The notes under the pieces were generated by a model. The model did no database searches. It was not told the origin of the DNA and saw only the letters and a list, made by a program, of their open reading frames with translations. A program made the position numbers and the translations under genes. A stretch of 64,000 nt of DNA from Dysidea avara. Its lineage: Eukaryota; Porifera; Demospongiae; Dictyoceratida; Dysideidae. This document shows, piece after piece, positions 2,591-63,910 of this stretch (the stretch's first letter is position 1; each line of letters opens with the position of its first letter). The stretch is from contig NC_089280.1 of NCBI RefSeq assembly GCF_963678975.1, positions 16,838,780 through 16,902,779 on the forward strand. The letters are read 5' to 3'.

Positions 2591-5500
2591 CTACAAAGTT
2601 TCTACAAGATTATCCACACAAAAAGTTGCCTTTGAGTTAAGTGATACGGAAGATTGATTTCTCTTGTAAACATTTCCTGTAGTTTTCACAACACTACATT
2701 TAACAGCTGAACAGTAACTTTCTGACCCTACTTCTTTCCTTACATGTCCATTGACTCCATTCAATAACTGTGAGTGTTGTTTTTCATATAAACTATTAGT
2801 TCCATTCACTTGATTTCCAGTAACAGTAGAATATAAACTGTTTAGATTGGGCCAGACAAATGGTGGCAGCCATATAGGATTTGTGAATGTTTGTAGCTGA
2901 GCCAGTTGAATGGACTGAGCCTGCAATGCAGCCAATTGTGTTGCAGCAGTGTAGTAGAGTGGAGAAGTTAATAATGGATTTGCAAAAAGTGACGACTGAT
3001 TACCATTATTGGCAACATATTCTAAACAAGGAGACACATTAACGTAACGCTCAGAACACTAGTAAGTAAACATTTACCTGTGTTACTTGTGCTGGTCATA
3101 TTATTCTTATCCTTGTGTTCTTCTGACTGGTCTTGTTCATCATATTGCTCACTAGAATCATCTTCTGTAACATCTATCACAGAGTCACACTCCATTGATT
3201 GTTGTAGAGAAGTTTCATTGTCTTCATAATTATTATCACTGCTGTCTCTTTCTTTGTCTCCAGGAAACTGCTGTCTATTACAATATACAGAAGAGATGAT
3301 AAACTTTAACTTTAACTGATGTATATACACAAAGTGATGAACACATAAGATAAGTTAAGATTGAATTTTGTTTCTCTAGTATCAGCAAGAGTATATAATG
3401 GGGAGGGTGGGGAGGGAGAGTATCGAACTACGCTATATGCTGTGAAAAATGAGCCCGTAAAGTCCTATGGCATTGTTCAAACGACTTGGTGATTTGTGTT
3501 GATTGGTGACTAATTATAAGCGCAGTGGGCGCACTTTGTACATGTGACTACTGAGTGAAAGAACGGTGTACTCGAGAAAAGTATGGCACATTACGCAGAG
3601 GAACTCGCCGTACAAAGAGAAAGACAGAAGCAGCTAACCTGGAAAGCAAACATCGAGGTTTCATCATGGTCGAGCGAGGTCGAGATTTTGATATTTCATC
3701 ATGGTAGAGATTTCATCATGGTCGCCATCCCATGCCTCGACAGTTGTACTAGTTAAAGTGACACATCTAGATGGAATTTCAGCCATTGTGATTCCATACG
3801 GACCACCCATTAAAACATTTAAGGTGTTAAATCTGAACAATCAACAACGGTCAGGTTTACGACAAGAAACGAAAGTATGCGGGTTACTTTACGGGCTCAT
3901 TTTTCATAGCATATAGTGTAGTTCAATACTCTCCCTCCCCATTATATACTCTTGGTATCAGAAGTAAACGTATATAGACCTCAGAAAATTTAGTTTTGAA
4001 TGAAATTATAAATTTAGTTGTGTATAAATCACTTACAATGATTTTAAGAACTCTAGTTTTTCTGTAAGTGACTGTTTCTCTTCTCTCAATACAGTTAAAC
4101 AGTTTTTATTTTCCTCAGCAATACTTTTCAGCTTCTAAAAAATATTATATGTAAGTGCATTACATTCAAACAAAAACACAGCACAATAAGAAATACATAA
4201 TAATTAAGATTTGTACTATACATATACTTCACACAGAACACTATGATAACATCAGTGTACATAATTGGTTGTGCCACTTTCTACCCAATTAAAATGGATA
4301 GCGTGTAAGTATCTTCAGTTATATATATGTAGGTTAGAGGCTTACTATGGGATGACAGTTATATAAGACGTAAAGCCGAGCATGAGTTTTTATAGCTAAC
4401 AAGGCGTAGGAGAGATGCTCTGCATGTTCAATGATCAGTAGTTGCAACAGAGACAATGAAGTCTCTACGTGGTTAGAAATTTTAACTTTTTTAGACAGTA
4501 TACCGTGGTGAGTTCTTTAAAAAGGTCAAAGAACAGTATAATAAGTTGCTTGCACATTTTCATTGTCTGTTATGTTTGGCACACGTGTTATCAGTACGTT
4601 ACTGTGCATCTGTCTGATCAAAATGTTAAATTCATTCTGCAAACTGTACAAAAAGTTACAAGAGACATACCAGTGTGATCCATGGAGTAGCCACCACACA
4701 CATTGCTCTACAATTTTCAATATATAAAGCACATACAGTAACAGAGTGGCTGTACTTCAGTTGTGGCCGGGCTACTGTGTGTGTTGATTACCTTTGTGCT
4801 ACATGTTCAGAGAAGCAGTGCAGGAAAACTTATGCATATTCACAGGGTTGTAACATCACTATCTCTTCGTTTAATGTTTTTTGATGAAATTGGATCAAAT
4901 ATTGGTCTTTCCCATTTTCAGCTAATCACGTTAAATAATCAATTGATCACATGACCAGTGTGCACATTATCTCCCAGCAATCACACTCAGCAGTATAAAA
5001 GGAGTGATTATCTGTGACATCTTTGAGCGAGACACACACTACTTCGCCCACTCCACTGCAAACACACTCTCCATGCTACTACACTGTCACTTTTACTTTC
5101 CCCCAGTTCACACTACAGGGTACAATATATCACAGGATGAATTAAGCCATGCTGAAAGCCAAGATGAGTTGGGCTGGCACAGGTTGTTCATGATAGGATA
5201 CAACACAAAGAAATACCAACTCAGCCAGGATCTTTGCTATATACTTACTAAAAGTATTTTACAATGTGGCACTATAAACTTTGGGGTGTCACTATATGTT
5301 TACATAATAATCGCAACAAATGACAATCTCTAACATTTGGCATCACCAGTGTGATCCATTTCAAACCTAGTGATTTATCGCAATTTTTAGTGTTGCACAC
5401 ATGTTTATGTGTACTCATGTCCATTATTCCACTAAGTAGTATGTCTTGATTAAACAAACAATAGTTCTCAACTTGAAGTATAGCCTACCTCAACAACAAT

Positions 5501-8500
5501 TTTTCAAGTTTACATAATACATATGCACGGTTATCCCAGAAACAGACTGGTATGGGCGTGTCTGCCTTAAACACTAGTGCATCTTACATTAACAAAACAA
5601 ATCATAGCAAAGCAAAATTATATTCTGTACATTATTTATGGTGCTGGCCGACATACAGTGGCTATGGTTATACATTGAAAAATTCAAAATCATCACTGCT
5701 ATCAACAGCACATTGTGTACCTGTACCACACCCTGGTTAAAGACAATTACAGGACATGGACTCATTTCAGTACACACTTGTTCCTACCATACATACTAGT
5801 ATCCATTCATCACTTCTATACACAATGCAGTACAAGTTGGCCCAGCTTCCTCTAGAGTTCTACAATGGCTTTATCAAGCTTATATTCTACCAGTGTTGGA
5901 TTATTGTGATACTGTATGGTTACCATCAACTTCTGCTGACACTCGTTGTTTAGAAAGACTTCATTCTAAGTTTACGTCATCATTTCCTTCTTCTGATAAC
6001 TTTAACCATATCAAAAAAGGCTAATGGAAATTGTAACATTTAGAAAATTTTACAAAGCACTAAATTTTAACCTTAATTCTTATGAAATATGCATTAAAAC
6101 AGCTACATCACGTCCTTTTTGTAGCTTTACCTTGGTCCCACTGATCAGTTAAAAATTTTCTTAACAGCCATTGTTTCTTGCCCAATAGAAAATACATGTA
6201 TTTGCGTTATATACAAATAATGCAAAAGTACACACGTTAGAATCCATAATTTTCCCAACAAACCAAACATAAAAACAAAGCCCTTGAATTTCTCTATACA
6301 ATGGAATCCGAACATTTGTTGTAACACTTTCATAGCGGCAGTTGTTAACAGTTGACTCCACCACAATGCATGTTCCATACAATTTTCTATAGGAGAAATT
6401 CGTTACCTCAGTACGCAAATCTCAAAAGTATGGTGGGTTGCCTTATCCAATTCGCTAAACTTGGTCTCATTCGATCAGTTGAATCGTACAGATTAAGAAT
6501 CCACCCGAAAGAATGGCTTAACTGGCCATTCTACAAAGATACATCACAAAACATACGAAAAAACAAGGTTTTTTCACAGTACAATTTCATACCTGGATGC
6601 ATAAATTCACTGTACAAAGCTCTCTCCTCTCTTTTCCATTGGTCGCTATACAAAAGCTTACATATCACTCGATGCGCAATTTATCAATGATTCTGATAAA
6701 TGCAACCCCATCTCCGTAAACTGAAGTATGCGGAAGTTATGATGCGTTGTTTGAAAGACGGTATTATTTTCCATAATTTTAATTTGTAAAAATTAAAAGT
6801 ACAGTAAATGCAACAAAGTTTTTGATATGCTTATGATCATCTTTAACTGAAAGGCATACTTTTCATATAGCTTTGCAGGTTTTCAAGATCCTCAATAAGA
6901 TCTCTCCTCCTTATTTACATGGAATTGTTTTGTATGCTGTGGATGTTAATGGTTGCTCTGTGAGAAATTTACAAAGATTATTTGTTCCCAGTGTTAGAAC
7001 TACTTACGGAAAACAATCTTTGGCATACAGGGGCACGGCCATATGGAACTGCTTACCAAAAGCACTGTACATGTACAGTGCTAAAACTGTGAAAGATTTT
7101 TAAAAAATTAGACTATATGTTGTAATTTTGTTATGTTGTGTATGTAAGTAGGTACTTTTATTGTATTGTTTATAGTGCTCTCAGGGCATAGCTAAAAAAC
7201 ATCCTTTTTGGCTGATGCTATCATTTTCCCTGATTAAATAACATTTAAAAAAAAAAACACTTCATGGCTTAGTTATTCTTCTATAGGAATTCCTTTGCTT
7301 CAAGAAGAGCAGCAGAGGTGACTCTAAGCTGACAGCAAGCTCAAACTGTGAGACAGTGACAGTGGCAAGATAGCAAATGATGATAGCTAGCTCAGACTGA
7401 AGATACATGTTCTTCCAATAGAATGATGTTCCTGGGCTTATCCCTCAAGGTGGGTGCAGTTAGCTGCTAGAATAAAAAATGAAAGAAGGCAATTATGTAC
7501 TGAGAGGCAAAGTGTGTGTTATAACCAAAGTAATATAATACCTATGTAACGTGTTGTCACTAAGCGATGTGTGTTATGACCAGTGTAACGTGCTGTTACG
7601 TCGTAATGTGCATAATGTGTGTGTGTGTAGTATGATGTCACGACGCGATGTGTGTTAGGACATGACTGATGTGATGTGATGTGCTGTTACAACACCATGT
7701 ACGTAATGTGTTGTGTAGTATAATGTCACGACGCCATGAAGATGCAAACTTCGTATCATATTAATAGGATCCTATGAAAATGTTTGACTCAAACCAATTG
7801 AAAATGTGACTTGACATTATCACCTATCTGACTATATTACAATACCTATGATACCAAATTTTGTAACAGAGTATTGCCACTTGGCATCATGTTATTGGGT
7901 AGCATCAATAGTATTGCACAACTCTCCTGGCTTAGTTGTAATATGTGTAAGTGGACTGGTCAATTCAGTTATTTACGATATGTAAACAGTTCACATTGTA
8001 TGAGTCTGAACTGCACTGAACTTAAGAATATCTCTGTAATAGGATTGAAGCCAGGTCATGGTTACTGACTTGGATGACCAATTCAATAGATGTGACCCAG
8101 ATTTGACATGGAATTTAGAATGTTATGGATGAAACTTACTTAATCCAGAAAGGTGACCCAACTGATCCAGAAAACTTTGCACATATATTGGATCTAATTA
8201 CAGTGAAACCTCACTTAGTGGCCACCTCAGTAATGAGGCCACCTCATTATAGTAGCCAGGTCCAGCAAGTCCAAACGTATTTTCCATTATGTTACATTTA
8301 TTTAATTTTCGTTAATAGGGCCACCTCATTATAAAGGCCAGTGGCCACATACCACTGGACCAAACTGGTAAAACTAATACAATGTTCCCTCAGTAAAGAG
8401 GTCAGCTGAGCAGGCAGTCAAGGTATCACCGCAAAAGTTGCTGCTCTTAAGTACACATTTTAACTACTGAAAGCAGTACCCATTATTCTGGCAGTATACT

Positions 8501-11500
8501 TCATGCTTTTCCAGCCATTATGTCTCAAGTATTGCTGGAATAATTGGTACATCGTATGCTCCTATCTTTCTCTGTGATAAACTCTACATAGTGTGTTTAG
8601 TTAGATCAATTGTATACTGATGTTACAGTTGCTGGTTTGTTGAAAACCTCAATAATAACGCCATTTTGTTTTATGGCTGCATTAATAAGGTTTTCGGTAA
8701 TAGGGCCACCTCAGTAATAGGGCCACCTCAGTAATAGGGCCACTTATCATGGGTCCCATAGGTGGCCCTATTAACGAGGTTTCACTGTACTACCATGTAA
8801 GGAAGTCAATAACAGGTGCACATGTCATAAAACATATCACATGCTGTTTGTTTGATAAGATTACAAGAATTACCACATTGAAAATATATGGTTAATAACA
8901 TTAAAATAACTCCACCCACTTCTATTCTGTGTTGTGGTCTAACCTTTATCTCATCTATTGCAGTACACAGGATAGTTCTTAGAATTGGCTTTTGGTGCGA
9001 GTAGGGTTGGAGTTCCTGGTGAAGTGTCAGCTGTGCTTGTTTTAAACTTCTTCGTCTAATAGTAAAACAACTTAATCACATTTAGTGTATAACCACAAAT
9101 CACATCTACCTTTTCTTTTCTTTGGCGTTATGTACCATCTTAGCATGGGAAACAGATTTGGTACTGTGAAACTTAAGATAATCAGAAACATCGTCTGAAT
9201 CAGAATCTGAATCATCCTTAGCAAATGGGTTTTCTACTCTCTTAATATCCACAGCATAAGCATCCACTTCCAATGACCCTACAGTAGTGGGAGCTTGGGC
9301 TTTGTGTAATTTTGTTTTCTTATTGCCTTTTAATAGTCTTGAGCCAACTTGGCTAGAACCATTCAGTACATTATCCCCTACAAGAAATTTATTTAAAATC
9401 TCACATAAAATTTAAATGTGCTATGTAGTATATTCAATATTTATATAAATTGAGGCCAAAAGTGATTAAATTACAATTTAGCAGGCCATACAACTATTCT
9501 AACTTAGGGAAAGTTTCCTGGTACACAAAGACAACACTTGTAGTGGTGTTATTATACCACTAAAATGTTTAAATATCACCTGAAACTGATACAATATATT
9601 AACTTGATGTCCACCAACTGCTAGACCTCATCCATCATACATGGTGTATTGTTATAAGTGCAACAGAGCATACTATATATTAACCACACAAAAGTGTTAT
9701 CAATAATAATCACTTCATTAGTACCAATCACTTTACCAAGAAAAAATTAATCAAAATATTTTAGACTCATTTTTTTAGTTATTTAACAGGCTACCATAAA
9801 CAACAAAAGTTAGGAGTGACTAAAGTTTGGTGAAGTCAGGAACTTTATCAGCCAATCAGCTATTCAGTACATAGTTCCATATTAACTGCATGGTAAGTTC
9901 GTCAAACTTTTATCCGCCGACCTGCTTCCATGCTGATTCGCCAAACCTTCGTCGTTTACGGTATAACTTGACTCAGAAATGTGATGGCCTAAATTTGAAA
10001 TAATGAACTCTTGAGTGATCTATATATCTATACATCTGGGCACACTTGCAGGATTTTGACCACCCCATTTCTTCAAAATAATCAGCTACACACATATAAG
10101 TACATATTGTATACCAAGAAATTTTTGCAGTAATGTACATTTCACAGTTATGTGATTTTAACGTTTTAAATTTCATGGGTGCCTCTTAGCCCAGGATTTT
10201 CGTGTTTAAATTTCATGGATCATTGTTGCTCAATTCAAAGATTTTTGCTCTCAACCACACAGCTACTGGGCTAATTTTTACTTTAAGCATCATACAGATT
10301 GTTAAAGCGCATCAGAACCAAGTAGCCCAGTAAACACGAGTACAGTAGTGGCAATCTCTGCGTGATGCACATAGTACAAACAGTATCACACACCAGGAGT
10401 CACACTAACTAAGTTTATAGGACACACATAAATTTTCACATGATAGAATTTCACGGTAGGTTTAAATAAACAGAAACATATGAAACAATGTCTGGACCAT
10501 CACATTTGGGTGTTTACACCACACAGTTGGACCAACTGCATGATTTAAGGATCTCAACTGTGTTACAAAGCCGCCCCATTGCACCAGGAATAATAATAAT
10601 AATTGGTACCTGCTATGGCCAACCATTAATATTATAAGCTTGACTGGGTGACACAACAACTTGGACCAACAATGTAAGTATCACTAAATCGGTAAGTGTG
10701 TGACTTAATGTATACTACATGACTGTTTGGTGATTTACTTTACCACAGAGACAAAACGTTGGCGATGAAAAATAATGATGAATTATGCTTCCATTTGCCA
10801 ATGTTTTATCCTCCAAAGTTTCAGCACATGATTGTGCTGATAATAGCATGGTTATTACAACTCTGTCGTCCTGCACATTGTCATCTACGTAGCCCAGATG
10901 GTCAACTCAACAAAAAAATTCATTAATGCCAAACTGATCATTGGTTAGCTACAGCAGTGAAGTGACCTTGGAATTGACAGAAGCACAATGCATGCATAGT
11001 CACTCACCATGTTTTTTATGCCACAAGGACGGACAGTGATACAATTAAAGTAAGAAAACAAGCTTCTGAAATGGGATAACACAACAAAAAACCATGAAAA
11101 TTTATTTCCCACCAATTACTATGTCCAATCAAGCACAATTAAATTATAGCTCAGATTTTCTCGCAGTATTTTCCATTCTAGTTCTACTTAAAAAAGTCAT
11201 GACACTTGATTTACTATTCTTATAGTGATTAGTGATTGTTTTTATCAATGTTATATGATTGATTGTGCAACATTCATCAAAAGTTATTTTTTTACCAATG
11301 CACGTTTTTTAGCAATTCGCCAAAGTTTTATAATGCAAATGTTCTGCATTATACGGTAAAACACACAAAGCAGTAATTCTTGTGGTCAGACAGTATACCA
11401 CTGTGTAGAGTGCTTGATCAAGCCACTGGTCACGTGTACCAAATATGAATGATGCCACTGACCATACAGCGATGGTACAAGTGGTGACACAAACGGTGCA

Positions 11501-12704
11501 TGACTAGGAAAGTAGTTGTTTAACCCAGAAAACTATAAGAGGACTTGCACGATGACATATTTCATTGTAATTGCTAACCAACCACAGTCATCAGCTTATG
11601 GATAATGTTGTAAAAAGCACCTTCTCACTACTTGTGATGGTCCATAGTGCGGTGAATGAGTATTAAGTTGTTGAATGAATAACATCCAGCTCGTTAGAAA
11701 CAGCAAAGAAGTTAGAATTGGTGAGTAACTGGTTTTAATAAGCCACCTACTTAATTCACAGGGCCAATATTGAGTTCTATTTCGAACCTTCCCATGCGGT
11801 GTCACTATAACCAGTGCTTAGTGAATAAAAGTCATTACCTTCATCCTGACCCAATGCGTGCCATGGAGGGTTGTCCTGAAGAATAGCTGTTGCTAGCCGG
11901 TGTTGTCACACATGCAAGTCCTCTATTGGAATCTAGCTACTATCAGTACAACCAGCTAATCTTTTTTTATGACCACTAGGGACCCACAAGAAGACTAAAG
12001 CCTGTACAGACAAAGACTGGTCGGAACCTTGATACTAAAACTCTGCTAAACGCTGTGACAGAAAAAAATTCCAGACCCAGTGGTGACTTGATCCTCCAAC
12101 AACATGCAATCTGAAGACATGCATCAAAGAAGCAACAACAGTTTGGATTCTGCAACTTCCTCTACATTGATTCAACCCAAACTTAAACAACATTGACTTC
12201 TTACCAACAAAAGGTTTAATCATAAGTTCATACTTTATACTGGCCACGCAAACAATGAGCCAGCATACGCATTCAACAAACACACAATCAGCCACATCAC
12301 ACCATCACACATCAATGCATGAATATGTCAACACACTAGCGTAAATTGTTTTGTATAGCGACTGTGACCACCTCATTTCTTGGAACTGATTTGGCCACGC
12401 CATAAAATAAACAGTTAGACTGAAATGTCTTCTCCTAAAACACTCCCATATATAATAAGAACAAACTCTGTGACAATTAAAGTCAGTGACTTTTGAGCTA
12501 GGTCTGAGTAGCTTTAAATTACTAGCTACCTAGATAGTGAGAACGGCTCATTGAGTTCTTTCCCATATTAACCAGTTCAATAGTCACATCATAATGGACG
12601 TATGCAGTCTTACCAAGTTCACTGGAGCTTGTTCTCCTTTGTTCCAAGATGTTTGCAGCTTCAACAAAGAGCAACAAATTGTCTCTGCCACCACATATAC
12701 TCAT
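2591..12704 (-). CDS. MNT/MXD-like bHLH leucine-zipper transcriptional repressor, 6 exons, 398 aa (proximal copy)
   Basis: Exons on the minus strand: 12614-12704, 9110-9377, 8944-9055, 4037-4134, 3078-3274 and 2591-3021 (stop). All junctions are GT/AG and all phases agree (1,2,0,2,1); the donor after exon 3 is the weak GTTAGA. Residues 9-24 (core FVEAANILEQRR) resemble the SIN3-interaction helix of MXD/MNT. Residues 85-97 are Asp/Ser-rich. Residues 111-125 form a basic region with the HN..E..RR..LK pattern (His113, Glu117, Arg121) that reads the CACGTG E-box. Helix 2 (PILRT) runs into a zipper with Leu159, Asn166, Leu173, Leu180 and Leu187 at seven-residue spacing. An acidic exon (190-255) and a Gln/Ala/Leu- and Trp/Pro-containing C-terminus follow. 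Known family role: nuclear partner of MAX that represses E-box genes through SIN3. The start is the ATG before the SID-like helix; extra 5' exons are not excluded. MNT fits better than MXD because of the long tail after the zipper. Confidence 0.82.
3386..3954. mobile_element. 569-bp CAAGAG-family element, 7-bp duplication, in an MNT-like intron
   Basis: The ends are CAAGAGTATATAATGGGGA and its complement, with arms of about 85 bp. GTATCAG flanks both sides (3379-3385, 3955-3961). It sits between zipper and acidic exons of the proximal MNT-like gene. A 57-aa plus-strand ORF (3583-3756, start MAHYAEELAVQRERQKQLTW) lies inside; its origin is unknown. Confidence 0.8.
5850..7255 (+). mobile_element. 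Degenerate L2/CR1-type LINE 3' fragment
   Basis: Two pieces of a non-LTR reverse-transcriptase C-terminal region. At 5878-6020 one frame reads AYILPVLDYCDTVWLPSTSA, the typical thumb-region motif of CR1/L2 elements. At 6870-7103 the frame reads QVFKILNKISPPYL, then RLFVPSVRTTYGKQSLAYRG and WNCLPKAL, the usual LINE C-terminus. The 3' end is an A-rich tail at about 7247-7257. The 0.8 kb between the pieces is unrelated in reading frame and may be an insertion. Inactive. Confidence 0.75.
7500..7740 (+). repeat. Imperfect tandem repeat rich in GTGT, GATGTGTGTTA and GTCACGACG
   Basis: Units of roughly 60-110 bp recur twice (TAGTATRATGTCACGACGC, ATGTGTGTTA). No ORF. Confidence 0.6.
8201..8787. mobile_element. 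pogo/Tigger-like MITE, 587 bp
   Basis: The ends CAGTGAAACCTC and GAGGTTTCACTG are perfect inverted copies flanked by TA, as in pogo-like Tc1/mariner elements. Subterminal GGCCACCTCA / TAGGGCCACCTC repeats are abundant. No transposase is present. It lies just downstream of MNT-like exon 3, in intron 3. Confidence 0.85.
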
Positions 12705-13269
12705 GACTCAGTCCTACAGCGACCAACGTATAGTTTATATGCTTTACGGATTTGTGTAGGATCTCGATGGAGAACTCCTGTCAGTATCGATGAAGACTAG
12801 TACGTCGCGAGCCGGTACGTCGTTAATTTGTATGGCTTGAATAACGCATGCTATTAATGACACTGGCATGTGGATGACTATTTTGTCCAAATACGTAGGT
12901 TGTAAACTAATTATGGCTTTTCCTCGAAAGCACTCTTAATTAATCGTTTATGAGATTTTTCCGTAATCCTCCGTGTTTTATTCCGTATATTGTGAGCGTT
13001 ACTCCGTTTATTGTGCTCGTTTAATTGCCTCGGGCTCGGATTGCAACCTACTGTAGCAGATCTTACTATCATTAGACATTAGATGTGGCGTGAGTTGGTG
13101 GGTTCTTATTGTTCGCCAGGAAGCTTACGGTTACTGACTGAGTCGCAAGCTGAGCCGAGGACCGAGCGGTTGAAACACCTCCAATTTGGACAATGCCATA
13201 GGTTCGAGGAAGAAGTTGCAGTGTGTGGTGGTAATGTGTATGTGTATTATTCAATGAGACTAAGCAAGT

Positions 13270-13440
13270 TTTTTAGATACATGTCGTCGTTATGACGTCA
13301 CAGGTAGTAAACGGAAACCGAGGCGGAACTACTCCGTACCCGGAGTGTGTCAGGTCCGCCTTTCTCTTTTTGTGCGGGGGCGAAAGAATTTTCGACTTGA
13401 TAGCAATGCTGACACGTGAGCTGACTCCACTGTTACAAGA
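13270..13440. promoter_or_regulatory. CpG-containing promoter-like region upstream of the proximal MNT-like gene
   Basis: In an otherwise CpG-poor window this stretch and the bases from 12795 onward carry many CpGs. It holds a perfect CRE (TGACGTCA, 13293-13300) and a CACGTG E-box (13413-13418). It lies about 0.6-0.7 kb upstream of the minus-strand start codon at 12704 and just ahead of a plus-strand ATG at 13440, so it could be a divergent promoter. An E-box here would allow feedback by the encoded bHLH protein. Function is inferred only from motifs. Confidence 0.4.
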
Positions 13441-13517
13441 TGGCTTTTACTGATCCTGTACAGAATGCAAGAATAGCCAGAAAAATAATGGAAGAATACA
13501 GGAATATTTATAACTGA
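13440..13517 (+). CDS. Short ORF of 25 aa after the CpG-rich region, unknown
   Basis: The ORF starts MAFTDPVQNARIARKIMEEY and ends after EYRNIYN at TGA. It sits immediately downstream of the CRE/E-box region. The composition (charged amphipathic helix) looks protein-like. The DNA after the stop could continue in another frame (YPDVDCGQKIENL), so this may be the start of a frameshifted or mis-spliced first exon. No family recognised. Confidence 0.25.
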   Translation: MAFTDPVQNARIARKIMEEYRNIYN

Positions 13518-16399: not shown

Positions 16400-16620
16400 T
16401 TATAAGTTATTCATTGTTACCACAAATTACTTTACCAAGAATATGACTGAGATAGACATTAGTGGACCCAGCTAAACAACCCACTACCAGGAAGAACATC
16501 TAATGAACACAAATGACCTGGTACCAAGAATTCAAATTTAATGAGATGAATACAATATTAACTCTTGTATATCCCATGCCCTGACTCAACATGCTAACAG
16601 TATTCATTGCAGCCTTTAAT
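16400..16620 (+). repeat. Dispersed repeat, copy A
   Basis: GTTACCACAAATTACTTTACCAAGAATATGAC ... CCTGACTCAACATGC (end motifs) is an inverted match of 33800-33970 and partly of 33170-33300, and a direct match of 2060-2270. Origin unknown. Confidence 0.6.
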
Positions 16621-17982
16621 TTGCTGTCTCTGTGCTCCAGAGAATTGTTGTACATTTGTTGGATTTAATGTTGTGTAATGGGTTATTCACCTTACCTGTA
16701 AAGTACATCTTAATTGTAATTCTGTTAGTCACATTATATGACATTAGGACTGGTTGTAGATAATCAAAATTTCTGTGTACAGTACATTTAAACAGATACC
16801 ATTTAACTGGTCCCAATTCAGCATGTCTCCTTGAAATAATTGTTTGCTTTTTATCAACCAAAGCTTGTAACTAGTACTAGTGACATTCTACAGTAATGTA
16901 CCCTCACTTACATGTACAATCCTAAGCACAAAAATAATTAATTTATCCAAGTTTTGTGTTGCAAGATATCTCCACTCTCTACAGTGAATGCAAGCATGAA
17001 CTAATCTACATGACAGGCTTGACATGATGTGGTCCGGTGTCTCTAAGAAATGCAATCTAATACATGTTTTTACAGTTACGCCTGTAAAACCTATAATCTG
17101 CAATTCCCTACAGTAACTACAGAAAATTTTACAAGATGAGGTTTATAATACATTGCAAGGCCGGAATACAATAGTGAAGAAATGTAGAGCATTGTGTTTG
17201 TGTATTAAAGACCTCACCTATACATTGTATAGTTTAAAAATTTTGACAAATTGCATTGCAACTCGTCAATGTTTTCTTTCTCAAAATTTTGCATTTAGTG
17301 TATGGGAGATTTATTACTTCTTGCAACATTGGAGAGTCAAAAACATAGAGCATGGTATGGCTTTTTACATGTTAACTAGCCACAAACATGCTTAGTTCAC
17401 TCCCTGTTTACTGTTGCCATTCCTTATATGGATGGTCAATTAAAGAAACCATGTGATACTCTACACTATTTCAATTTTCCCTTCTGTGTTGCAAAAAGTA
17501 ATAAATTCCTTGTGCAAAGACTGCATACTATCATCACCTGGTTTTTTGAGTAGCAGTAGTAATCACAGTCAACAATTTTGCTTTATCACGTAAGAGAAAA
17601 AGCATATAATACTATAAGCAAGATCGACTTACCAACATTCTAATTCCATCTAGGGAGCAAACTTTAAAGTAAAAGTATGTAAAAGTTTGTTTACTAGTGT
17701 TTCAGTCTCCCTAAGTGAGAGTTGTAATGGCACGAGCAAGATTTCAAAGAGTAGAGATACTGTCTGTACATTACTATATACATTACATGGAACAAGTAGT
17801 CAATACAAACCACAATGCTTGATAAATTCTTATGTAAGTGCTGACTTTCTATCAGTGAACCATATGACCAAGAAAACACAAATGCATTATGTAAATAAAA
17901 GGTGTGTGACCAATACAATAGGTTACAATACAAATACACTTCAATCACACTAAAACTGCACTTGGTATATACTGTATGTACT

Positions 17983-20900
17983 TTATAGCACCTTATTCAT
18001 AACTGGTGCCTTAGATTTTGGTGATGTGCAGGACTGATTTCTCTTGTTGTCAACCTTTCCTATTGTTTTAATAACACTACATTTAACTGCTGTAGAGTAC
18101 TTTCCTGATCCTTCTTCATGTCCATTGACTACCTGTAAGTGTTGTTTTTCATATAAACTATTAGTTCCATTCACTTGATTTCCGGTAGCAGTGGAATATA
18201 AACTGTTTAGATTGGGCCAGACAAATGGTGGCAGCCATATGGGGTTTGTAAGTGTTTGTAGTTGAGCCAGTTGAATGGACTGAGCCTGCAATGCAGTCAA
18301 TTGTGCTGTAGTTGCACAGTAGAGTGGAGAAGGGAATAAAGGATTTGTAGAAGTCAGCAACTGGTTAGAATCAGTGGCAGGATATTCTGTTAAGAAAGAA
18401 ATATTACGCTCATACAGTAATAAGTTATTTCCAAGCAGTAGCTACAAATTTAGTATTTACACTACAAATTGTAAAAGGATTATGGTTTCCCCAAATTAAA
18501 GGGATCCAAAAGTCCAGCAAACAGGATGTCTACAAGATAGTTGGGGATCAACTGATGACTTATATCAAAGAGAATTATGATGTTGGTTTTCTAATAGTAG
18601 AATATCCCAAACGTAGTCAGGTTAGTGTACTACTGGCTGGAAATTGGGTTAAGTTGGCAGCATAAAATATCTCAAAACTTTGCTGAACTTACAAGCAATT
18701 TGATTGAGCTTAATGACAGTTCCTCAGAGCATAAATCAAGGCATAGGCATATTCTTATCCTTGTATCATGGAGCAGGTCTATAAATCTAACATGTGGAGA
18801 TTATAAATTATTACACTCTTTAGTTTGAGTATTGTGATTAGCTAGTGTTGCCCATATTAGACATTTCAACAGCAGCAGAAATGTATAATATGGGATGCAC
18901 CATATGGCATGTACCAATGTAAAACTCATAATGAGAAACCACCGCTTGATTTGCACTGTGATATTGGAAGCAGAAAATCTCCATTTACTACAAAATTCAA
19001 GTAGGGTTTTAAATTCTCAGCCAGGATGTACTACATACATAAAATTGACAAGGAGAAAACATACTGACCACCTGGCATACTCCTGTAAGCGTTTGAACAC
19101 AAATTGAATGGCTGCAGGATCAAGGCCGCTTATAAATTAGGTACAGTCATGGATTTTTTCTCTTTTCTGCAACTTTCAAACACACTTAATGAAACAGGCT
19201 GTAGGACCAGGTGTCCTACAAACCTTCAGCATTTGTGCTGTAAAGCCTTAATAAATAAATGGGTGACTACAGTTTACATAAAAACTGCTAAAAGTTATGT
19301 AAATATTTACCATTGAATTTACTATTTCTACATAAATTCATTTTGTACTCCAATACTTAAGTGATGTATTGAGCTGAGAAAATAAAATGAACATCTGTGC
19401 AAAGCAGACATATTGCTGCTTCAGCTGTACGCAAACTTTGCAATTTTTGACTGTTACATGAAACTATAATACCTTGTGTTGCTTGTAGTGATTTTTAGCA
19501 AAAAAATTATTGATGAAACCTTTAACAGTAGGGAGTAGCTGTTCTATTAGAGTATTTGTCAACAATCTATTGGAGAAATATACGCTAATATATACATATA
19601 TAATTCTGGGTGTTAAGTTATTTCCTTACGTAAACAAAATACATTTGTATGCAAGTGTTGTGATAATGTAGTCCTTTGTAATATTCCACAATTAGTTGCA
19701 TTATCATTCATTCTTGGCCACACCAGATATCGGCTTTGAGCCGGCTTGGCCACACCAGATATTGGCTTTGAGCTGGATCACAGATATTTTTTACAGCCAA
19801 AATCTGTATACCTCTAGGAGATGCTGAGAAATAACAGGTCACATGCAGCCATAGTAAAATCTACACATCTAATCTGGTTACCTTTTAAGGCAAAAAATTC
19901 TAAGCAGATTTTAATTGGAGTTTATTGTATGATGATGTTATTAGAAATATTTACATACAGTATATTAATAAAATATCAGATAGCATATATAAAACAATTG
20001 ATATGTCCTATAGAGAATTTACTTTGATTGCCTTGATTATCTTCAACCACCATTCGACCACAATCTTTTGTTTGGTTTTGTTCAACATGTTGCTCACTAG
20101 CATTACTCTGCAGGTCATCTAAAGACGTCTCACATGTACACATTGACTGATGTTCACCACATTCATCATTTTCATGACTATCATCGCTACCAATCCTACC
20201 ATCACTGCTGCTGTGTGTTTCTGAATCTCCTGAAAATTTCTCTCTGTAGTGAAAATATATGAACACAAAGCCAACATCATGTATCAAAAGCTGATGGGTA
20301 ACTTATAAATTAATTAGCACACTATACCGTAACACATTTTACCAAATAATTTCTGTTCTGTGAATGCTATCCCACTAGGGCTTAAAGCCTGTGAATACAG
20401 GAAGTCAGAAACATGGAACTAAAACATGAAGAATGCAGAGACAAAACTCCTAGACTCAGTGGTGACTTGATCCCCAGTAACATGCAGTCTAGGCATGCGC
20501 CACTCTTAGCTACATGTATATGACTCCAATCAATCACTTACAATAAGTTTTGAAGTTTTTCTGTAAGGCAGTCTTTTTCTTTTTTCAATGTAGACAAGCA
20601 ATTCTCATTTTCTTCGGTGATATGTTTCAGTTTCTAAAGTATTAAAGTCAACAACAAACTATACATCTTTCATCATAAATACATACTGACCATGCACACA
20701 AACAGATATTCGTTTTCACTTCTCTAAACTAATGCTTTCAAAGTTTCTTTTTTCTGGCTCTGTGGCAAATTATACAATTGCAGGTGGTCTTGATAAGGCT
20801 GTGACTAATGTATGTTCTGCTTTCAGCTTCACTGGACTATAATACATTCAAAGCTTTTGGTATCCTTCAAATTTGGTGAATTTTTCATAAGAACATCCCA

Positions 20901-23900
20901 GTCCCACAAAGCAATGCTTTTGGCCACCATGTAGCTAAACACCTACTGGTGCGCCATCTGTGCACTGCTCGCCAGCACACCACACCGTGAGTATATTTAC
21001 AGGAAGAAAAACACAATTTTCATATATACATAGCTCCATCCTCCCTTCCTGGATTGGAACCGATTGGAACCATTTTTATACTCCACTTTCAGCATTCCAC
21101 ATACCAAATTTGAGCAAGATTGCTAAATGCAATTATAGTGAAATTTGAGCCTTCAAAATCGGCTTAATTTTTTTCCTTCATTTAGGGCGCTTGGGGACTT
21201 AGATTATTCCTTTCACAGCTATTTCATGGCCACCACCTTTGATTTCACAACTTTTTCACCCAGGCTTTTCAAAGGCCACATCCTTTTTTATACAGCTTGG
21301 CTGTATTTGCATGGATTTACTCATTTCCCCCATTAATACAGCTGAGTGGAGTTCTTGCTCAAGCAAACAACAGTAACCAAGCATCACTGGGCAGAAGCCT
21401 TGCAATTTCCAGGCTCATGCATGCTCCAATCACTTGGCTGTGCTGCTTCACACATACATGCACATATATACACACCCCACCCACCCACTCACATACACAC
21501 ACATGCACATACACATATACACACAAACACACACACGTATGTACATACGTACACACAAAAGCAAACCCTCCAGCAGCCATGTGAAACGCAGCCATGTGAA
21601 ACACAGCTATTGCTGCCCAGTGAACCAGCACTGGGATACTTGTGCACCATTCAAACACTTGAGTCCTGTGCAGGCAAACCCACTTGGATCAGGACTAGTA
21701 ACCCATAGGAGTTCTTACAGAGAGAGGCTCCGGAGTCCAAAGTTCCACAATGACCCTAACACCACTTAGTGAGATGAGGCATTTGCCTCTCCAGTTAACA
21801 ACAGATACTCATTGATGTTACAGCTGGGTGGGCTGCTTCCCCAGTTGACACCAGGCCATGCACCAGCTCCCCATTATACAACTGGGTAGAATGTGGGTAA
21901 ACTTTCTTGCTCAAGGAAGCAACAACCAGGGACGTAGCTAGCCAGAAGGTGATGGAGGGGCAGGCATGCCCCCACGAAACGCTCAAAATCATTCATGATT
22001 GCAAAAAGGGATAATGACCCAATGGTGGGCTAGCCAACATACGGTGTTGTATTATTACAGCTCACACAACTAGCTACGTAACTACTTCAGTACTGATTGC
22101 TTATCTTTTATCAATGATTCAATGGAGGTATATTCGTCGAGCATCATCGCACGTGCCACAACTGTACTCCAACAAATTCATCCACAGTCCGGTAGAGCTA
22201 TATTGTTAATATTTTAGTGCTAATACAAGTTACTTTACGTTAGCCACAGCTTGTGTTGCAGTCCTAGCACACTGCTGTCAGGATGACATCTTCACTCACT
22301 TCACTCGGCGAAATTCAAATGCCACGTATTGCATGAAATCCCACCGGTCCTTCTTGCTAGCAGAAATTGTAAGTTTGTGACTGATCCAGGCCCGTAGCCA
22401 GGGGGCTCTGAAGAACCGCCCTTTTGGAATAGGCCGACTACACTGGCAGCACTGCCGTACAAAGATCTAGTGTGATCGACTCGAGAAAATAAACTTGGTA
22501 CATTTAACACTTTATGACCTCATAGGCAGTAGGTTCTTAGCATCTGGTCTCCTTTGTCATTTGTAAGTTGTGACTCCTGCTGCAGCAAAGTCCTTTGAGC
22601 GGGTCACTCTTTATATTCGAAAATGCTCTATCACGTGAGTAATCTAGGCTAAATATAGAAGTGTGTCTCTAATATTCGTTCGGTGGATTCACGAGCGAGT
22701 TGAATGTTGTGTGTGCGCATTCACTAGCAACCCCTGGTAGTACCACGTAGTAGCGCACATAATTTATAGTCATTTGCGTGTCAGTTTAATATTGGTAAGC
22801 TTGTGATGGAGGTTTTTAAAAAAAAACCACTATGGTGATGGGGGGCAAATGCCTCCCCTTGCCCCCCCTTGGCTACGCCTCTGGCAACAACGGCTTTACA
22901 TAACTGGACATCAAACCTGTAACTTCAGTTTTGATTAAAAGGCTGATGCTCCACACACACACGCACGCACGCACGCACGCTCGCACACACGCACGCACGC
23001 ACGCACACACACACACACACACGCTTGAACGTGCACACACACACAATCTCTAATGGAGCATACCTTATTATATGAAATTTTCAACGTCACAAAATGACAT
23101 CTGTACATGCAAGAAGCTTAGCTGTTGACTTTAGAAAACAACTTTGCAGTACATTAAAAGCATCAGTGTTGTTAACACTGATTCCTGCAAATACACAATA
23201 TAAAATGTTTTTGTATTAAATACACTTGAAGGCAAGAAATTGTTGCAACATTGAAATGGTACATCAAATTCATTGGTAGGTTCTTAAAAGCATCTTGAAT
23301 AATCATAACCAGGAACAAAAAGGAATGTAGCATTATTACATTGTATTGGTAGAAACAATAATGAAATTTTGGTCATTGTCGTACTTTTTCAGGTAGACAC
23401 CAGTATAGGTAAGGCATGCATTAGGATTGAAATTTTCAATGAATAAGGAGTGATGCTATAATGCCAAAAATAATGATTGTTGCACCATTCACAAGGGTGT
23501 TCATCTAATGAAGAATCATAACAATGTGCATGCTTAAACAAAAGGCTTGTGTAATTACTATCTTTCAAAAAGATAATAATCTATGCATAGAATGTAGATC
23601 CAGCAGTGTGGCAGCAGAGCTACGTATATTATATCAGTGGAAATCAGTAGTGTATACACAAGGAACGGATATAGTTAGCAAATCTGATTTATTTTTCACA
23701 TGAAAAGGTTACTAGTTGAGCCATATGACAACCTACTCAAAGAAGTAGTAAATGCTACATCCACTGATGAGATTAATTGACTATTAGTAAATGTAATGAG
23801 ATGGATGGCTGTGGTATTCGGGATTAATAGTTCTCGCAATGTAAACAGGAAGGGAAATAGAGCTATAGTTCTCGCATTGTAAGCAGGAAGGAAACAGTGC

Positions 23901-26900
23901 TCAGCTAAGTACTATTTCCTTTCTGTTTACAATGCAAGAACTATTAATCCTGAATACCACAGCCATCCGTCCTATTACAAATTGTGACCCAGTCTGGGAA
24001 AACCGGTCTTATTGCCTATTTAAAAGTATCGAGAAATACCAGTTTTAAGTATTTAGTGTGTTGTAGCTCACCAATGGTTGAAGCTGTGTGTACCAAAATT
24101 TCACACGTTTTGCACCAATTCCTTACCTTCCAGAGCATCCACTGTGCAAGTAGCCAACAACTAAGTTTCCTGCCATTTTAGATAGTTTTTGAACCGAGGT
24201 TGACTGTATCAGGCGAGCTACAAAAGGGGAGGGAGGCGGGGGCCCGGAAGGAGGGCAAGAGGCTGTTCAAAAAATTGAAAAGGAAGGTGTAGGGATGAAC
24301 TAGGCAAAGTTATGGGGCATTGAGGTCTCAAAACTGGCTAAAATGAAAGGAAATTTACAGTAGAAGTATTTATCCAACACCACGGAGCTGTACAGCCACA
24401 TACAGCCATCCCCTGAGCTCCATTAAAGCCCCACACCGCACATACGGATCAACACTGGGCTTGGGAAAAGCAGCCAGCAAAACCGGACCACTCAAGTTTA
24501 GCTGATTTTGATTGTAAAATTAGATAGTTTATTCATGTAGCTTTGTGTTCTGGGTGAAAAATCAAATCTGCTGACATTGGCGATAAGACCGGTTTTCCCA
24601 GACTGGGTCACAATTAATCCAACAACTATAACAACTGTTACTAAACAACATAAATAAGACTAATCACACTTAGCAACCATTGCTATGGTCCCAAGGTGAC
24701 ATTTACCTTAGCAATGATTAACTAGCAACCATTGCTAAACAACCATATTGTTGCTATGCTATGGGGCATCTATCACTATGGTAACACTAGTTGTCAAATC
24801 AGACATGTACTTCCAATAGAAACACACCACACTATTTTAGCCAATAAGATTAGTATTACAGATTTTTGTCAAGAGACCTTGACAAACAAGTGTAATGCTA
24901 ATTTTATTGGCTAATCACTTGATGTATTTCAAAATAATACGTCAAGCTGCTATTGAGAGTATTATATTGTAACTCATTCACTTGTTGGATTATGAGTTAA
25001 ACAATTTGTTCTTATGCATGTAGTTAATTTTGTCACATATTTGTACCTGTCGATCAGATCATATGGCCTTATAATATAGGAATAACAATAGAATGCTACA
25101 CTACAAGCCTATATAATGTCTTTACTTGGCAACTCATTTGTATAGTGTCAACAGAGAGCAAGATTGAGATACTTTAATAGAGCAGTCACCCTAATAGCAA
25201 TCAGGAAAATATGAGCAATAATAGTTAATCTAATAAACTGTTAAAACTAGCCTTATATTCACAGAGAGAATAATGTTTAAAGTTTCTTAAGGTGGTATCC
25301 TAAATCGAGATACTCTACTACAGCAGTCACCTTAATACTGTGATAGACTGCTAAAATCACTCTCAGATTCAATCTCAGAGGGTCTAAACATTTCCTGGGG
25401 AAGCATGCCTCCAGACCCCCTGAGGTTGGTGCTTTGCATGCTAAGGTACGTATGCATTTTTTCTATATCGAATTGCTATAAATATAATTACCTAGGCTCT
25501 TGCATCATCTGGCTACGCCCCTGAATCGCATACTACCACAGAAAGTTGCACCATTACAGTGGTAAGTTTCATCATTCCAGTCATATGTTACATCATTCCA
25601 GCAAGGGCGTAGCCTACCAGGGGGGTTGTTTGGATGAACTCCCTTTCAGAGGCAGAAGCTTATAAAATCAAAAATCACACCAAATCTTACAGCCCTGGAA
25701 CTCTCCGGTACGTAGCTACTTGCATACCTTTTGAGGGTCACATCACTGAATCATTGATGAATCAAGTAATGCATCACGTGATCAATTGTGCATGTGATGC
25801 ATGGTGGGAATGGTGATGGACTGTTTAGTTCAGTGCCTAAGCCATAAAACCATTCACGTTTTGACAAAAGCACCTAAATTAATTTCTTATGGGGTTTGCA
25901 GAACGTGTACCAAGTGATTTTAGAAAGGAAGGCACATACGCAAAAAAGTCCTTTGGAAGCAATTAATTTTTGGACCTTGTCATTAAAACTATGTTTACAT
26001 GGAAAACAATCAATATCCTATTAGTTTAAAGGCTGGATCCAGTATTAGACCAGTACAAAGCCTACAAAAAGCCAAACTGTTTTTTCAGCCTGGTAGTAAA
26101 TGACTGAAAATGCTATTTTCAAGGGGTTTCATTGAAGTTTTACATTTCCATTACACACAGTTCCATTTGTTTATAGCAAAAATTATTGAATGATGAAGTT
26201 TTAATTGGCTACAGGTGGAAATAAAATTATTGAAATCTCCATGTATAAACCAAGCAATTATCCTTGCAATGTGATCAAATTTAATCAGTATTGCAGAGAC
26301 AACTTGTTGTTTGGTAGATTGACACTGATATATTAACAGCATTTTCAGTCATTGTGTTTACTGCCAGGCTGAAAAAACAATTTGCTTCATATGGTTTTTT
26401 TGTTGCAGCTGCAGCAGGCTTTGTACTGGTCTAATACTAGCTAGATCCGGACTTTAAACTAATAGAGTATTGAATGGTTTCCATGTAACCAAATAATTGC
26501 ATTGACAAGGTCCAAATAAAGGGTTCCAAAGGACTTTTTATGTGCCTAAAATCACTTAGTACACATGCTACAAACACTATAAGAAATTTAAGAACAATTA
26601 TCTCAATTAGAGGGACTCATGGCACTGCACTAGTCGGTTGAGACATCATTACAAGGCAGCAGCTGCAATAAACTGTGGTCGTGTTATACGTGTGCCAGGT
26701 TAGCACAAACTGTAAATAGTTTCACAATGAATGATTTATTTGTTTGTCACATGTTGCTGCCACATGATGTCTCAAATATTGCCAACTAAGAGACCAAATG
26801 TGGAGGGCTCTCATGTGCTAGGAAATTGAAGTGGCTGCTAGTTTTTGCTGTCAGGAAGTGAAGATTAGTTAGTAATAGTTTACAACAGGTTTATAGTTTC

Positions 26901-27748
26901 TGTAAACTGCAGTGTGTAGGTTTTAGCTTTAGTTAGATGCACAAATAGCTAGCAAGGACCTTTTATTGTCACTGCCTAAGAGCACATTTTGCGCATATAT
27001 TATTTTCATTCAAACGTGGTCCCAAGCCTTCCCCCAAAGACATTCCATGCACTTCAAATCTGAACCCCCTTCCAGAAAATCCTGGCCAAGCCCCTGTCCA
27101 GTCATAAGTTACATCATTCCAGTGATAAGTTACATACATCATTCCAGTCACCACATAGCAATGTATTTGGTGTGAAATAGTACCATATGGTTTAAGTACT
27201 ACATATACTGGAAGCCTTGAATACTGCTACCAAAGTTAACTGTGTATTTAAAGAAATTTTTGTATCACAATTCTCTATGTTCCACAGGAATGACTGTGGG
27301 CTACCACATTAGAATTAGTGTGGTCAATAACATCCAGCCACTAACATTGCGTCACCTACTTCTACTCCATGTTGTGGTCTAACCTTTATCTCCTCTGTTG
27401 CGGTACACAGGATAGTTCCTAGAATTGGTCTTTTGTGTGTGTAGGGTTGGAGCTCCTGGTGAAGTGCCAGCTGTGCTTGTTTTAAACTTCTTCGTCTAAT
27501 AGTATAACAACTTAATCACATTCAGGATACAGTTCGCACAAGTTGCATACCTACCTTATTTTTTCATCGGCAGTACGCCTCATCCTTCTAGATGTAGTAC
27601 CTCGATACTTATGTTGACAAAAGACATTACTGTCATCATCAGAATTTTCAAGAGTTTTAGCAAATGGATTTTCTTCACTCTTAATATCTACAACATAAGC
27701 ATCGACTTCCAATGATTCTACAGTGGTGGGAGCTTTAGCCTTTTCCAT
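17983..27748 (-). CDS. MNT/MXD-like bHLH leucine-zipper protein, distal tandem paralogue, at least 340 aa
   Basis: Exons on the minus strand: 27555-27748 (from the first in-frame ATG), 27384-27495, 20542-20633, 20023-20243 and 17983-18386 (stop). They match the proximal gene exon for exon with the same phases, giving 340 aa. The zipper has Leu/Asn/Leu/Leu/Leu at seven-residue spacing. The acidic exon and the C-terminal block around NPIWLPPFVWPNLNSLYS are retained. Oddities: the basic region reads RRTADEKIRRRSLK, so the E-box-contacting His is Arg and the next Asn is Thr, while Glu and the Arg pair stay. No SIN3-interaction exon was recognised upstream. A possible acceptor at about 27782 leads into a frame that conflicts with the coding frame, so the 5' end may be truncated, use a private promoter or be frameshifted. 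The 6.7-kb second intron is repeat-rich. Confidence 0.72.
19161..19262 (+). repeat. Retroposon-like tail repeat, copy A
   Basis: GGCTGTAGGACCAGGTGTCC, CTTCAGCATTTGTGCTGTAAAGCC followed by TTAATAAATAAAT. Same unit at 34234-34332 (+) and 43545-43650 (-). The AATAAAT tail suggests a retroposed element. Confidence 0.6.
21460..21560 (+). repeat. CA-rich microsatellite
   Basis: Interrupted (CA)n with ACATACAC variants. Apparent reading frames across it are low-complexity artefacts. Confidence 0.9.
21590..21700 (+). repeat. SINE-like dispersed repeat, copy C (partial)
   Basis: CCCAGTGAACCAGCACTGGGATAC... through GGACTAGTAACCC matches the first half of the unit at 42640. A CA tract lies directly upstream. 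Confidence 0.55.
21927..22883. mobile_element. hAT-like non-autonomous element, 957 bp, 8-bp duplication
   Basis: The termini are CAGGGACGTAGCTAG and TTGGCTACGCCTCTG, followed inside by G-rich and C-rich stretches with GGCATGCCCCC. It is flanked by GCAACAAC (21919-21926 and 22884-22891). No transposase was recognised; the interior shows a CpG-containing segment but no convincing coding exon. Confidence 0.8.
22952..23045 (+). repeat. (CA)n/(CGCA)n microsatellite
   Basis: ACACACGCACGCACGC tracts. Immediately follows the sequence that borders the hAT-like element. Confidence 0.9.
23793..23983. mobile_element. Foldback MITE, ~190 bp
   Basis: Arms of about 68 bp, GGATGGCTGTGGTATTC ... AAACAGGAAGGGAAATAG and their complement, with a short centre that repeats part of the arm (TAGTTCTCGCATTGTAAGCAGG). 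It is directly followed by another inverted-repeat element. Confidence 0.8.
23982..24618. mobile_element. Inverted-repeat element TGTGACCCAGTCTGGGAAAACC, ~637 bp
   Basis: The left end (AATTGTGACCCAGTCTGGG, AAAACCGGTCTTAT) and right end are perfect inverted copies over about 35 bp. No ORF with recognisable motifs. The target duplication is unclear. Confidence 0.75.
25602..27094. mobile_element. hAT-like host element, probable, interrupted by a foldback element
   Basis: The left end CAAGGGCGTAGCC...GGGGGGTT and right end complement of CAGGGGCTTGGCC...GGGGGTT are similar to the CAGGGACGTAGC hAT-type ends at 21927. The insertion lies in a short tandem repeat (GTTACATCATTCCAGTCATAA) that continues on both sides. 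An exact 8-bp duplication could not be shown because of that repeat. Confidence 0.5.
25881..26592. mobile_element. Foldback element with ~250-bp arms
   Basis: Arms 25881-26130 and 26335-26592 are inverted copies (for example AAAGTCCTTTGGAA, TTAGTTTAAAG, ATTAGACCAGTACAAAGCC, TTTTTTCAGCCTGG). The centre of about 200 bp has no ORF of note. It is nested in an element that seems to run from 25602 to 27094. Confidence 0.75.
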
Positions 27749-39125: not shown

Positions 39126-39213
39126 AAGTTAAAAAGTATAGCTGAAGAAAGCAAACACTGCTTAGCTGTATTAAACACTCTTTTACAGAAAGACTACAGT
39201 TCTTAAAATCATT
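39126..39213 (+). pseudogene. Relic of the MNT-like leucine-zipper exon
   Basis: An 88-bp stretch between an AG acceptor and a GTAAGT donor matches the 98-bp zipper exon of the proximal gene (KLKSIAEE at its start, TTCTTAAAATCATT at its end). Ten bases are missing in the middle, which shifts the frame and gives a stop before the donor. It is on the plus strand, unlike the two genes, and directly abuts an inverted-repeat element at its 5' side. No other exon of the family was seen nearby. Confidence 0.7.
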
Positions 39214-44879: not shown

Positions 44880-45060
44880 GTCTATCATAATGGCAAAGGT
44901 CTATGAAAAGTCTAATCACAATGGCAAAGAACTATGTCATAATGGCAAAAGTTTATGTCATTTTGTCATAGTGGTAAAAGTCTTATGTTATAATGGCAAA
45001 GGTCTATGTCGTAATGGCAAAAATGACAAAGGTCTGTGTCATAATGGTAAAAGTCTATCC
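44880..45060 (+). repeat. GTCATAATGGCAAAGGTCTAT minisatellite, block 1
   Basis: About eight variant units of 18-24 bp. The reading frame over it (HNGKxLCHNGK) is a product of the repeat. Confidence 0.85.
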
Positions 45061-45326
45061 ACACAAAACAGCCAAGCTATGAAAAAACGGTGCGGCCTTA
45101 AAAAGCCTGGGTGAAAAAAGTTATGAAATCAAAGGTGGTAGCCAAGAATGGCTGCAATGATGTTAATGCTAATAAATTTTAACAATGCACACAACCATTA
45201 TTAAAATTTTTATCATTAACATCATTGTAGCCATTTCTTGGCCGCCACCTTTGATTTCACAACTTCTTTCACCCAGGCTTTTTAAGGCCACACTATTTTT
45301 TCACAGCTTGGCTGTTTTTGTGTGGA
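45058..45326. mobile_element. Foldback element with ~120-bp arms
   Basis: Arms from TCCACACAAAACAGCCAAGC through GTGCGGCC, AAAAAGCCTGGGTGAAA and ATCAAAGGTGG to TTAATG, then the complement. The loop is about 20 bases. A single diverged arm is found at 21205-21310. The left end borders a minisatellite. Confidence 0.8.
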
Positions 45327-63507: not shown

Positions 63508-63910
63508 GTAATAACTTATTGAATGGTTATAGTGGCTTGAATCTGTTAAAAGGCAATAAGAAAAGAAAGTTACATACATGTGTAAAGCCCAAGCTCCCAC
63601 TACTGCAGAGTCATTGGAAGTGGGTGCTTATTAAGAGAGTAGAAAACTTATTATTAAAGATGATGTTTCTGGTCACCTTCCGTTTCACAGTACCAAATCT
63701 GTTTCCCATGCTAAGATGGTACATAATGCCAAAGAAAAGAAAAGGTAGATGTAATTTGTGGTTATATGCTAAATGTGATTAAGTTGTTATACTATTAGAC
63801 GAAGAAGTTTAAAACAAGCACAGCTGACACTTCACCAAGAGCTCCAACCCTACACACACCAAAAGCCAATTCTAAGAACTATCCTGTGTACTGCAGTAGA
63901 GGAGATAAAG
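63508..63910 (+). pseudogene. Inverted, frameshifted copy of MNT-like exons 2 and 3
   Basis: Segments 63508-63744 and 63799-63910 match the acidic/basic exon and the helix-loop-helix exon of the proximal gene, on the opposite strand. The 54-bp intron between them is kept and nearly identical to the proximal one. The first exon is 237 bp instead of 268 bp. An 8-bp insertion near 63576 and a deletion near 63630 destroy the frame and create a stop after the AY of the VDAY motif. The second exon is intact, ends in GCAGTAGAGGAGATAAAG and is followed by the same GTTAGA donor. Zipper and tail exons would lie beyond the window end. This looks like a segmental duplicate rather than a retrocopy, because the intron is present. 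Confidence 0.8.

Follow-up and report, generated by a model that had tools for sequence, protein, structure and literature searches.

A tandem pair of bHLH-zipper genes best placed in the MXD/MNT arm of the MAX network, one with a SIN3-interaction-like helix and one with none detected in the window

Proteins of the MXD/MNT family dimerise with MAX, act at E-boxes and bring in SIN3 together with deacetylases (PMC8465425). The same source gives six exons for the human MNT gene and a single MXD/MNT gene for Drosophila, and describes how deletion of the SIN3-interaction domain (SID) converts MNT to an activator (PMC8465425). The family is sparsely represented in Table 2 of PMC5064789, which has no Mad and no Mnt for Sycon ciliatum, and one Mad and no Mnt for Amphimedon queenslandica. 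A splice form of MXI1 without the SID is reported to be functionless (PMC8984142). Among the literature matches listed, none of the titles or abstract openings reports MXD/MNT genes in tandem, or a paralog in this family that is a gene without the SID. Two general properties of bHLH proteins are also relevant here: E-box reading is ascribed to His5, Glu9 and Arg13 of the basic region, and the Id proteins, which have an HLH without a basic region, titrate their partners.

The window (the whole stretch of DNA that was analysed, 64,000 nt in length) is eukaryotic-looking, with spliced genes and a G+C content of 37% overall (34% to 41% per 2-kb step). It contains two genes of this general type, which we call A and B. 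Both are on the minus strand, head to tail, and they span about 10.1 kb and 9.8 kb, so that an earlier note on this DNA, which had described two head-to-tail genes of about 10 kb each, was right in both arrangement and coordinates. The features of the two genes are as follows.

Gene A, 12704-2591, minus strand: six coding exons, 398 aa, frame open throughout.
Gene A exon 1, 12614..12704, minus strand: ATG and SIN3-interaction-like helix NLLLFVEAANILEQRR; donor CTTG/GTAAGA (exon/intron), phase 1.
Gene A exon 2, 9110..9377, minus strand: acidic linker plus basic region HNAKEKKR; B exon 2 and relic C are its homologues.
Gene A exon 3, 8944..9055, minus strand: helix 1, loop and helix 2.
Gene A exon 4, 4037..4134, minus strand: leucine zipper.
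Gene A exon 5, 3078..3274, minus strand: serine-rich, acidic stretch past the zipper.
Gene A exon 6, 2591..3021, minus strand: C-terminal region that includes a strongly conserved ~75-residue block.
Gene B, 27748-17983, minus strand: five coding exons, 340 aa, frame open throughout.
Gene B first coding exon, 27555..27748, minus strand: acceptor at 27782; in-frame stops precede the ATG; basic region altered, RRTADEKIR.
Gene B helix 1/loop/helix 2 exon, 27384..27495, minus strand: matches A at 101 of 112 nt.
Gene B zipper exon, 20542..20633, minus strand.
Gene B acidic exon, 20023..20243, minus strand.
Gene B C-terminal exon, 17983..18386, minus strand: DNA identity with A exon 6 of 80%.

The splice sites of both genes were chosen by eye, with A-B similarity and the GT-AG rule as guides. 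All nine modelled introns (five in A and four in B) are GT-AG, but because the rule steered the choice of sites this is by itself no independent test. The open frames and the matching phases are such a test. The four introns common to A and B have phases 2-0-2-1 in both genes, as the earlier note had claimed, and the phases of A are 1,2,0,2,1, the additional phase-1 intron sitting behind exon 1. The six exons that had been proposed are found in A, while B is modelled with five coding exons. At the DNA level, the two genes are 90% identical in exon 3 and about 80% identical in exon 6, which is beyond chance. The conserved block in exon 6 of A is without a Pfam match. Exon 6 of A and an ORF at 40.9 kb have no relatives in the genome and viral contig collections searched, and a LINE-like ORF in the window has none in the viral contig collection; these collections are not of animal genomes, and little can be read from such misses. 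Rfam and tRNA searches of the window gave no matches.

Exon 1 of A ends in a consensus donor, with the phase that exon 2 requires, and encodes an N-terminus, NLLLFVEAANILEQRR, that resembles a SIN3-interaction helix. On a scale based on five human SIN3-interaction peptides, this N-terminus has a SID score of 31.8 and ranks first of the 48212 stop-free six-frame windows. The runner-up scores 18.6, and the best value from 40 Markov-1 simulated 64-kb sequences is 25.6, so that the SID-like N-terminus of A is above chance. The SIN3-interaction-like N-terminus ascribed to the proximal gene in the earlier note is thus the top-scoring segment, exceeding both the next window and the simulated controls, and we conclude from the sequence that A has a SIN3-interaction-like domain near its N-terminus. 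Used alone against solved structures, the peptide matches no chain of at least 20 residues.

The rest of A has the layout of a MAX-network protein, with a bHLH and a leucine zipper directly after it, and it aligns with human MNT ungapped across the basic region, helix 1, loop, helix 2 and zipper (MAFFT alignment). Its basic region, HNAKEKKRR, fits the E-box pattern of His5, Glu9 and Arg13. The loop of A and B is equal in length to that of MNT and MAX, and the loop of the four MXDs is one residue longer. At the zipper position of the MYC Arg-Arg pair, where the residues have a functional role, A, B and MNT all have Glu-Lys. The spacing from helix 2 to the zipper is the same in A and B, as had been observed before, but the KLExL block said to mark its end is found only in A (KLEFL) and reads KLQNL in B.

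Generic models give weak matches to these domains. In the bHLH profile check proposed earlier (PF00010), both proteins score under the Pfam HLH cut-off of 20.7 bits, with 17.2 for A and 11.0 for B as whole proteins and 20.0 and 12.8 for the domain alone. In a search of solved structures, A comes closest to MYC (E 0.66). Against 15 human bHLH references, phmmer has MNT at the top for both A and B, whereas by global-alignment Z-score A is best with MXD3 and B with MAX, and neither with MNT. A profile built from nine MAX-network sequences gives values of 6.6e-9 for A and 2.1e-6 for B (E for one sequence).

Trees with the human references were built from three sets: one of 17 rows, one minus four long references, and one minus these and B, so that the third contains A only. 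The window proteins share a branch side with MXD and MNT in all three trees (support 95/95, 95/96 and 95/97), and support for A/B with MXD alone is 89/98, 68/97 and 65/40. The A/B branch is very long, at 5.5 to 6.5 changes per column. In AU tests across the three trees, an MNT-only grouping is not rejected (p 0.35, 0.47 and 0.42), and neither is a grouping with MYC (p 0.23, 0.23 and 0.13) or with MAX (p 0.093, 0.096 and 0.075). A grouping with USF/MITF/SREBF/TFAP4 has p 0.054, and membership in the MLX group is rejected (p 0.006). Based on tree placement and AU results, the MXD/MNT arm is therefore the best place for A and B, with the SID-like helix of A helping, and MNT and MXD are indistinguishable as the nearer relative. 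The MNT/MXD-like identity proposed in the earlier note is accordingly supported at the level of the arm, which all three trees recover, with MYC and MAX left unrejected by the AU test.

Gene B differs from A mainly at its N-terminus. Six-frame SID scoring and tblastn with the A SID found no SID exon for B in the 64-kb window: apart from that of A, no segment exceeds a score of 18.6, and the best other tblastn match (E 1.1) is not a convincing second copy. Between the strong exon-2 acceptor at 27782 and the ATG at 27748, the protein frame of B contains three stops, and the other two frames from this acceptor stop too. B must therefore begin at ATG 27748, unless use is made of a weak AG at 27759, which lies between the last upstream stop of B and the ATG. 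In the following, because of the missing SID in the window and the stops before the ATG, we use the term SID-less paralog for B and do not treat it as a full family member. The label of repressor, given earlier to both genes, fits A with its SID-like helix and does not clearly fit B. The basic region of B is also changed: it retains Glu and the final Arg, but Arg and Thr stand in place of His and Asn, and the E-box pattern is no longer complete.

Parts of further copies lie on the plus strand.

Relic C exon 2, 63508..63744, plus strand: 237 nt versus 268 in A; frame lost.
Relic C exon 3, 63799..63910, plus strand: matches A at 106 of 112 nt; taken alone, still reads as an intact bHLH.
Relic D, zipper exon copy, 39126..39213, plus strand: 88 nt versus 98 in A; frameshifted; splice sites persist.

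Relic C thus consists of exon 2, a short intron and exon 3, and the A-phase frame hits a stop early in exon 3; later exons of C could lie beyond base 64000. The idea that D and C together form a single collinear third gene was rejected, since on the plus strand exon 4 (39.1 kb) is upstream of exons 2-3 (63.5 kb), and both parts are frameshifted. C and D are two relics, or one that was rearranged, and so attest to a minimum of one decayed further copy, two being the simpler count. Three features of the locus had been overlooked in the earlier reading of this DNA, namely that B is without a detectable SID exon in the window, that its basic region is changed, and that there are relics on the plus strand. 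The lineage-specific expansion suggested there stands as a tandem duplication, and its lineage-specific status is likely, as judged from the high A-B similarity by itself.

Sequence divergence between A and B indicates constraint. The overall dN/dS is 0.546 over 331 codons (p 5.8e-5, from rounded counts), and by part it is 0.17 for the zipper (at a dS of 1.4, near saturation), 0.37 for the HLH exon and 0.69 for the basic region. On these values the A-B pair is judged to be under purifying selection, although a pairwise dN/dS cannot tell which of the two was under selection. The length differences between A and B in exons 3-6 are 0, 6, 24 and 27 nt, all multiples of three. In neutral simulations, B came out stop-free in 18 of 5000 runs with half of the A-B differences placed on B, and in 191 of 5000 with a quarter. 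By dN/dS, frame-preserving lengths and the neutral simulations, B does not look dead.

The divergence is not uniform along the genes. Synonymous changes number 33.5 over ~50.6 sites in exons 4 and 5 and 30.3 over ~117.6 sites in exons 3 and 6 (p 1.5e-6, from rounded counts), a p value that is optimistic because the exon groups were set post hoc and exon 2 (17.75 over 42 sites) was excluded. The gap placement in exon 5 is uncertain and may inflate its synonymous value. A uniform neutral divergence of A and B was rejected, the synonymous change being patchy, high in exons 4 and 5 and low in exons 3 and 6. Intron 2, which is 54 nt long in A and C and 59 nt in B, is 81% to 93% identical among the three, and exon 2 is 87% identical for A-C and 61% to 65% identical for the two pairings that involve B. 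This pattern suggests gene conversion of the bHLH core as the simplest account of the patchy divergence; alternatively, the similarity of the short introns may come from splicing constraint.

We think it probable that the locus is a cluster of the MXD/MNT arm evolving by birth and death, in which a SID-bearing repressor (A) and a SID-less paralog (B) compete for MAX. That the proteins pair with MAX, bind E-boxes and, for A, recruit SIN3, and that B competes, is inferred from knowledge of the family. In such a cluster, the zipper of A would pair with MAX, its basic region (HNxxExxRR) would read E-boxes, and its N-terminal helix would dock on PAH2 of SIN3, bringing in histone deacetylases. B would have been born by local duplication, retaining the HLH, zipper and C-terminus, with the SID gone and the basic region changed. 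It could then rival A and MYC for MAX without SID-mediated SIN3 recruitment, weakening either A or MYC. Given the activator switch of MNT and the functionless form of MXI1, the effect of B may go either way.

Three other explanations were weighed against this one. A and B might both be ordinary MXD/MNT-type repressors, with the SID exon of B too diverged to be recognized, outside the window, or joined via the weak acceptor. In favour of this, human MXI1 has alternative first exons that share exons 2-6 (PMC8984142), and the AG at 27759 lies between the last upstream stop and the ATG. From acceptor 27782, however, all three frames stop before an N-terminal extension is possible, and neither the SID scores (18.6 at most outside A) nor tblastn (best other match E 1.1) gave a candidate in the window, and we regard this explanation as unlikely. 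Alternatively, B might be a functionless, dying duplicate heading the way of relics C and D. The absence of exon 1, the shorter exon 2, the eroded basic region, a relaxed overall dN/dS of 0.55 and two broken further copies in the same window speak for this. The 340 open codons of B, its preserved splice sites and phases, the length shifts in multiples of three, the zipper dN/dS of 0.17 and the rarity of matching neutral simulations (18 of 5000 with equal branches, 191 of 5000 if B took a quarter of the differences) argue to the contrary, and make a dying B quite unlikely.

A different type of alternative concerns the family itself: A and B could come from another bHLH-zipper group (MYC, MAX or USF/MITF/SREBP-like), with the SID-like helix of A being coincidental. 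The Pfam scores are weak, the AU test leaves MYC and MAX unrejected, and the p of 0.054 for USF/MITF/SREBF/TFAP4 is consistent with this as well. A coincidence would have to place the helix at the extreme N-terminus, behind an ATG and followed by an in-phase donor, and the placement with MXD and MNT recurs in all three trees, with the MLX group rejected (p 0.006); this makes an origin from another group improbable.

Within the favoured explanation of a cluster with a SID-bearing A and a SID-less B, a narrower version can be put forward tentatively, as possible if somewhat doubtful: B may be a dedicated, gene-encoded antagonist within the MAX network, a duplicated MXD/MNT gene from which the SIN3 helix has gone and whose DNA-reading residues are altered, its dimerisation surface and C-terminus having been preserved by selection. 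If so, B would be a soft competitor or partner titrator, and the permanent counterpart of the vertebrate MXI1-WR splice form. Tandem duplication of transcription factors is commonplace; less ordinary is that the SID-less form has a gene to itself, apparently under selection. A local cluster in which one gene carries the SID and the other does not would amount to a natural experiment showing which part of a Myc antagonist is the important one, and since SID-deleted MNT is an activator, the effect of B is directly testable.

Compared with the known systems, A is like MNT in its N-terminal SID-like helix, bHLH-zipper and six exons, and A and B are both like MNT in loop length, in the zipper Glu-Lys at the MYC Arg-Arg position, and in their top phmmer match. 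MNT also has an acidic stretch past the zipper, a feature matching A. In contrast to MNT, A is without the long proline-rich spacer between SID and bHLH, is shorter (398 aa versus 582 in human), has a very diverged bHLH, and has a C-terminus that is seemingly unrelated. MXD1, MXI1, MXD3 and MXD4 share with A a SID-like helix ending in LExRR and the bHLH-zipper, and A and B are joined with them in the best trees; the loop of A and B is one residue shorter, however, and the C-terminus looks different.

For B, the closest parallels are of other kinds. Like the SID-less MXI1 splice form, B has no detected SID and retains the bHLH-zipper, but whereas the MXI1 form arises by splicing of a single gene, B has a gene to itself, with a start of its own and an altered basic region. 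Partner titration, as practised by the Id proteins, is a possible mode for B as well. Unlike these proteins, B may still bind DNA, retains Glu and Arg in its basic region and has a zipper.

The short intron that adjoins exon 3 (helix 1, loop and helix 2) spans 54–59 nt in the two intact minus-strand MXD/MNT-like genes, at 9109-9056 in gene A and 27554-27496 in its paralog B. Between B and the other copies, this intron and exon 3 are far more similar than the adjacent exon 2, which suggests, at the level of sequence, that gene conversion lies behind their high likeness. The family and its surroundings comprise the following features:

3019-2594 (A) and 18384-18007 (B), minus strand: C-terminal exon with a conserved block, LQAQSIQLAQLQ..TNPIWLPPFVWPNLNSLYS
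5741-7103, plus strand: ORF fragments inside the large intron of A
39126-39213, plus strand: broken copy of the family's zipper exon
40894-41241, plus strand: 115-aa ORF carrying a CxxC..HxxC-like pattern
45057-45327, 54414-54613, 56718-56927 and 60499-60637: self-complementary stretches (blastn of the window against itself)
51120-51359, plus strand: ORF with a clear SAM domain (Pfam SAM_2, E 5.4e-11)
63508-63910, plus strand: broken copy of the family's bHLH exons

Between A and B, the C-terminal block is better conserved than the bulk of the protein, and the C-terminal exon of A had no match in Pfam. Nothing in Pfam matched the 115-aa ORF either, and the two contig collections scanned (genome and viral, not animal genomes) yielded no relative. 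The SAM domain was identified at the level of this single ORF.

By resemblance, the intronic ORF fragments look like the final part of a LINE reverse transcriptase; the two pieces searched in Pfam had no match. The window contains several self-complementary stretches; the four listed are 139–271 bp long and by appearance look like inverted-repeat mobile elements.
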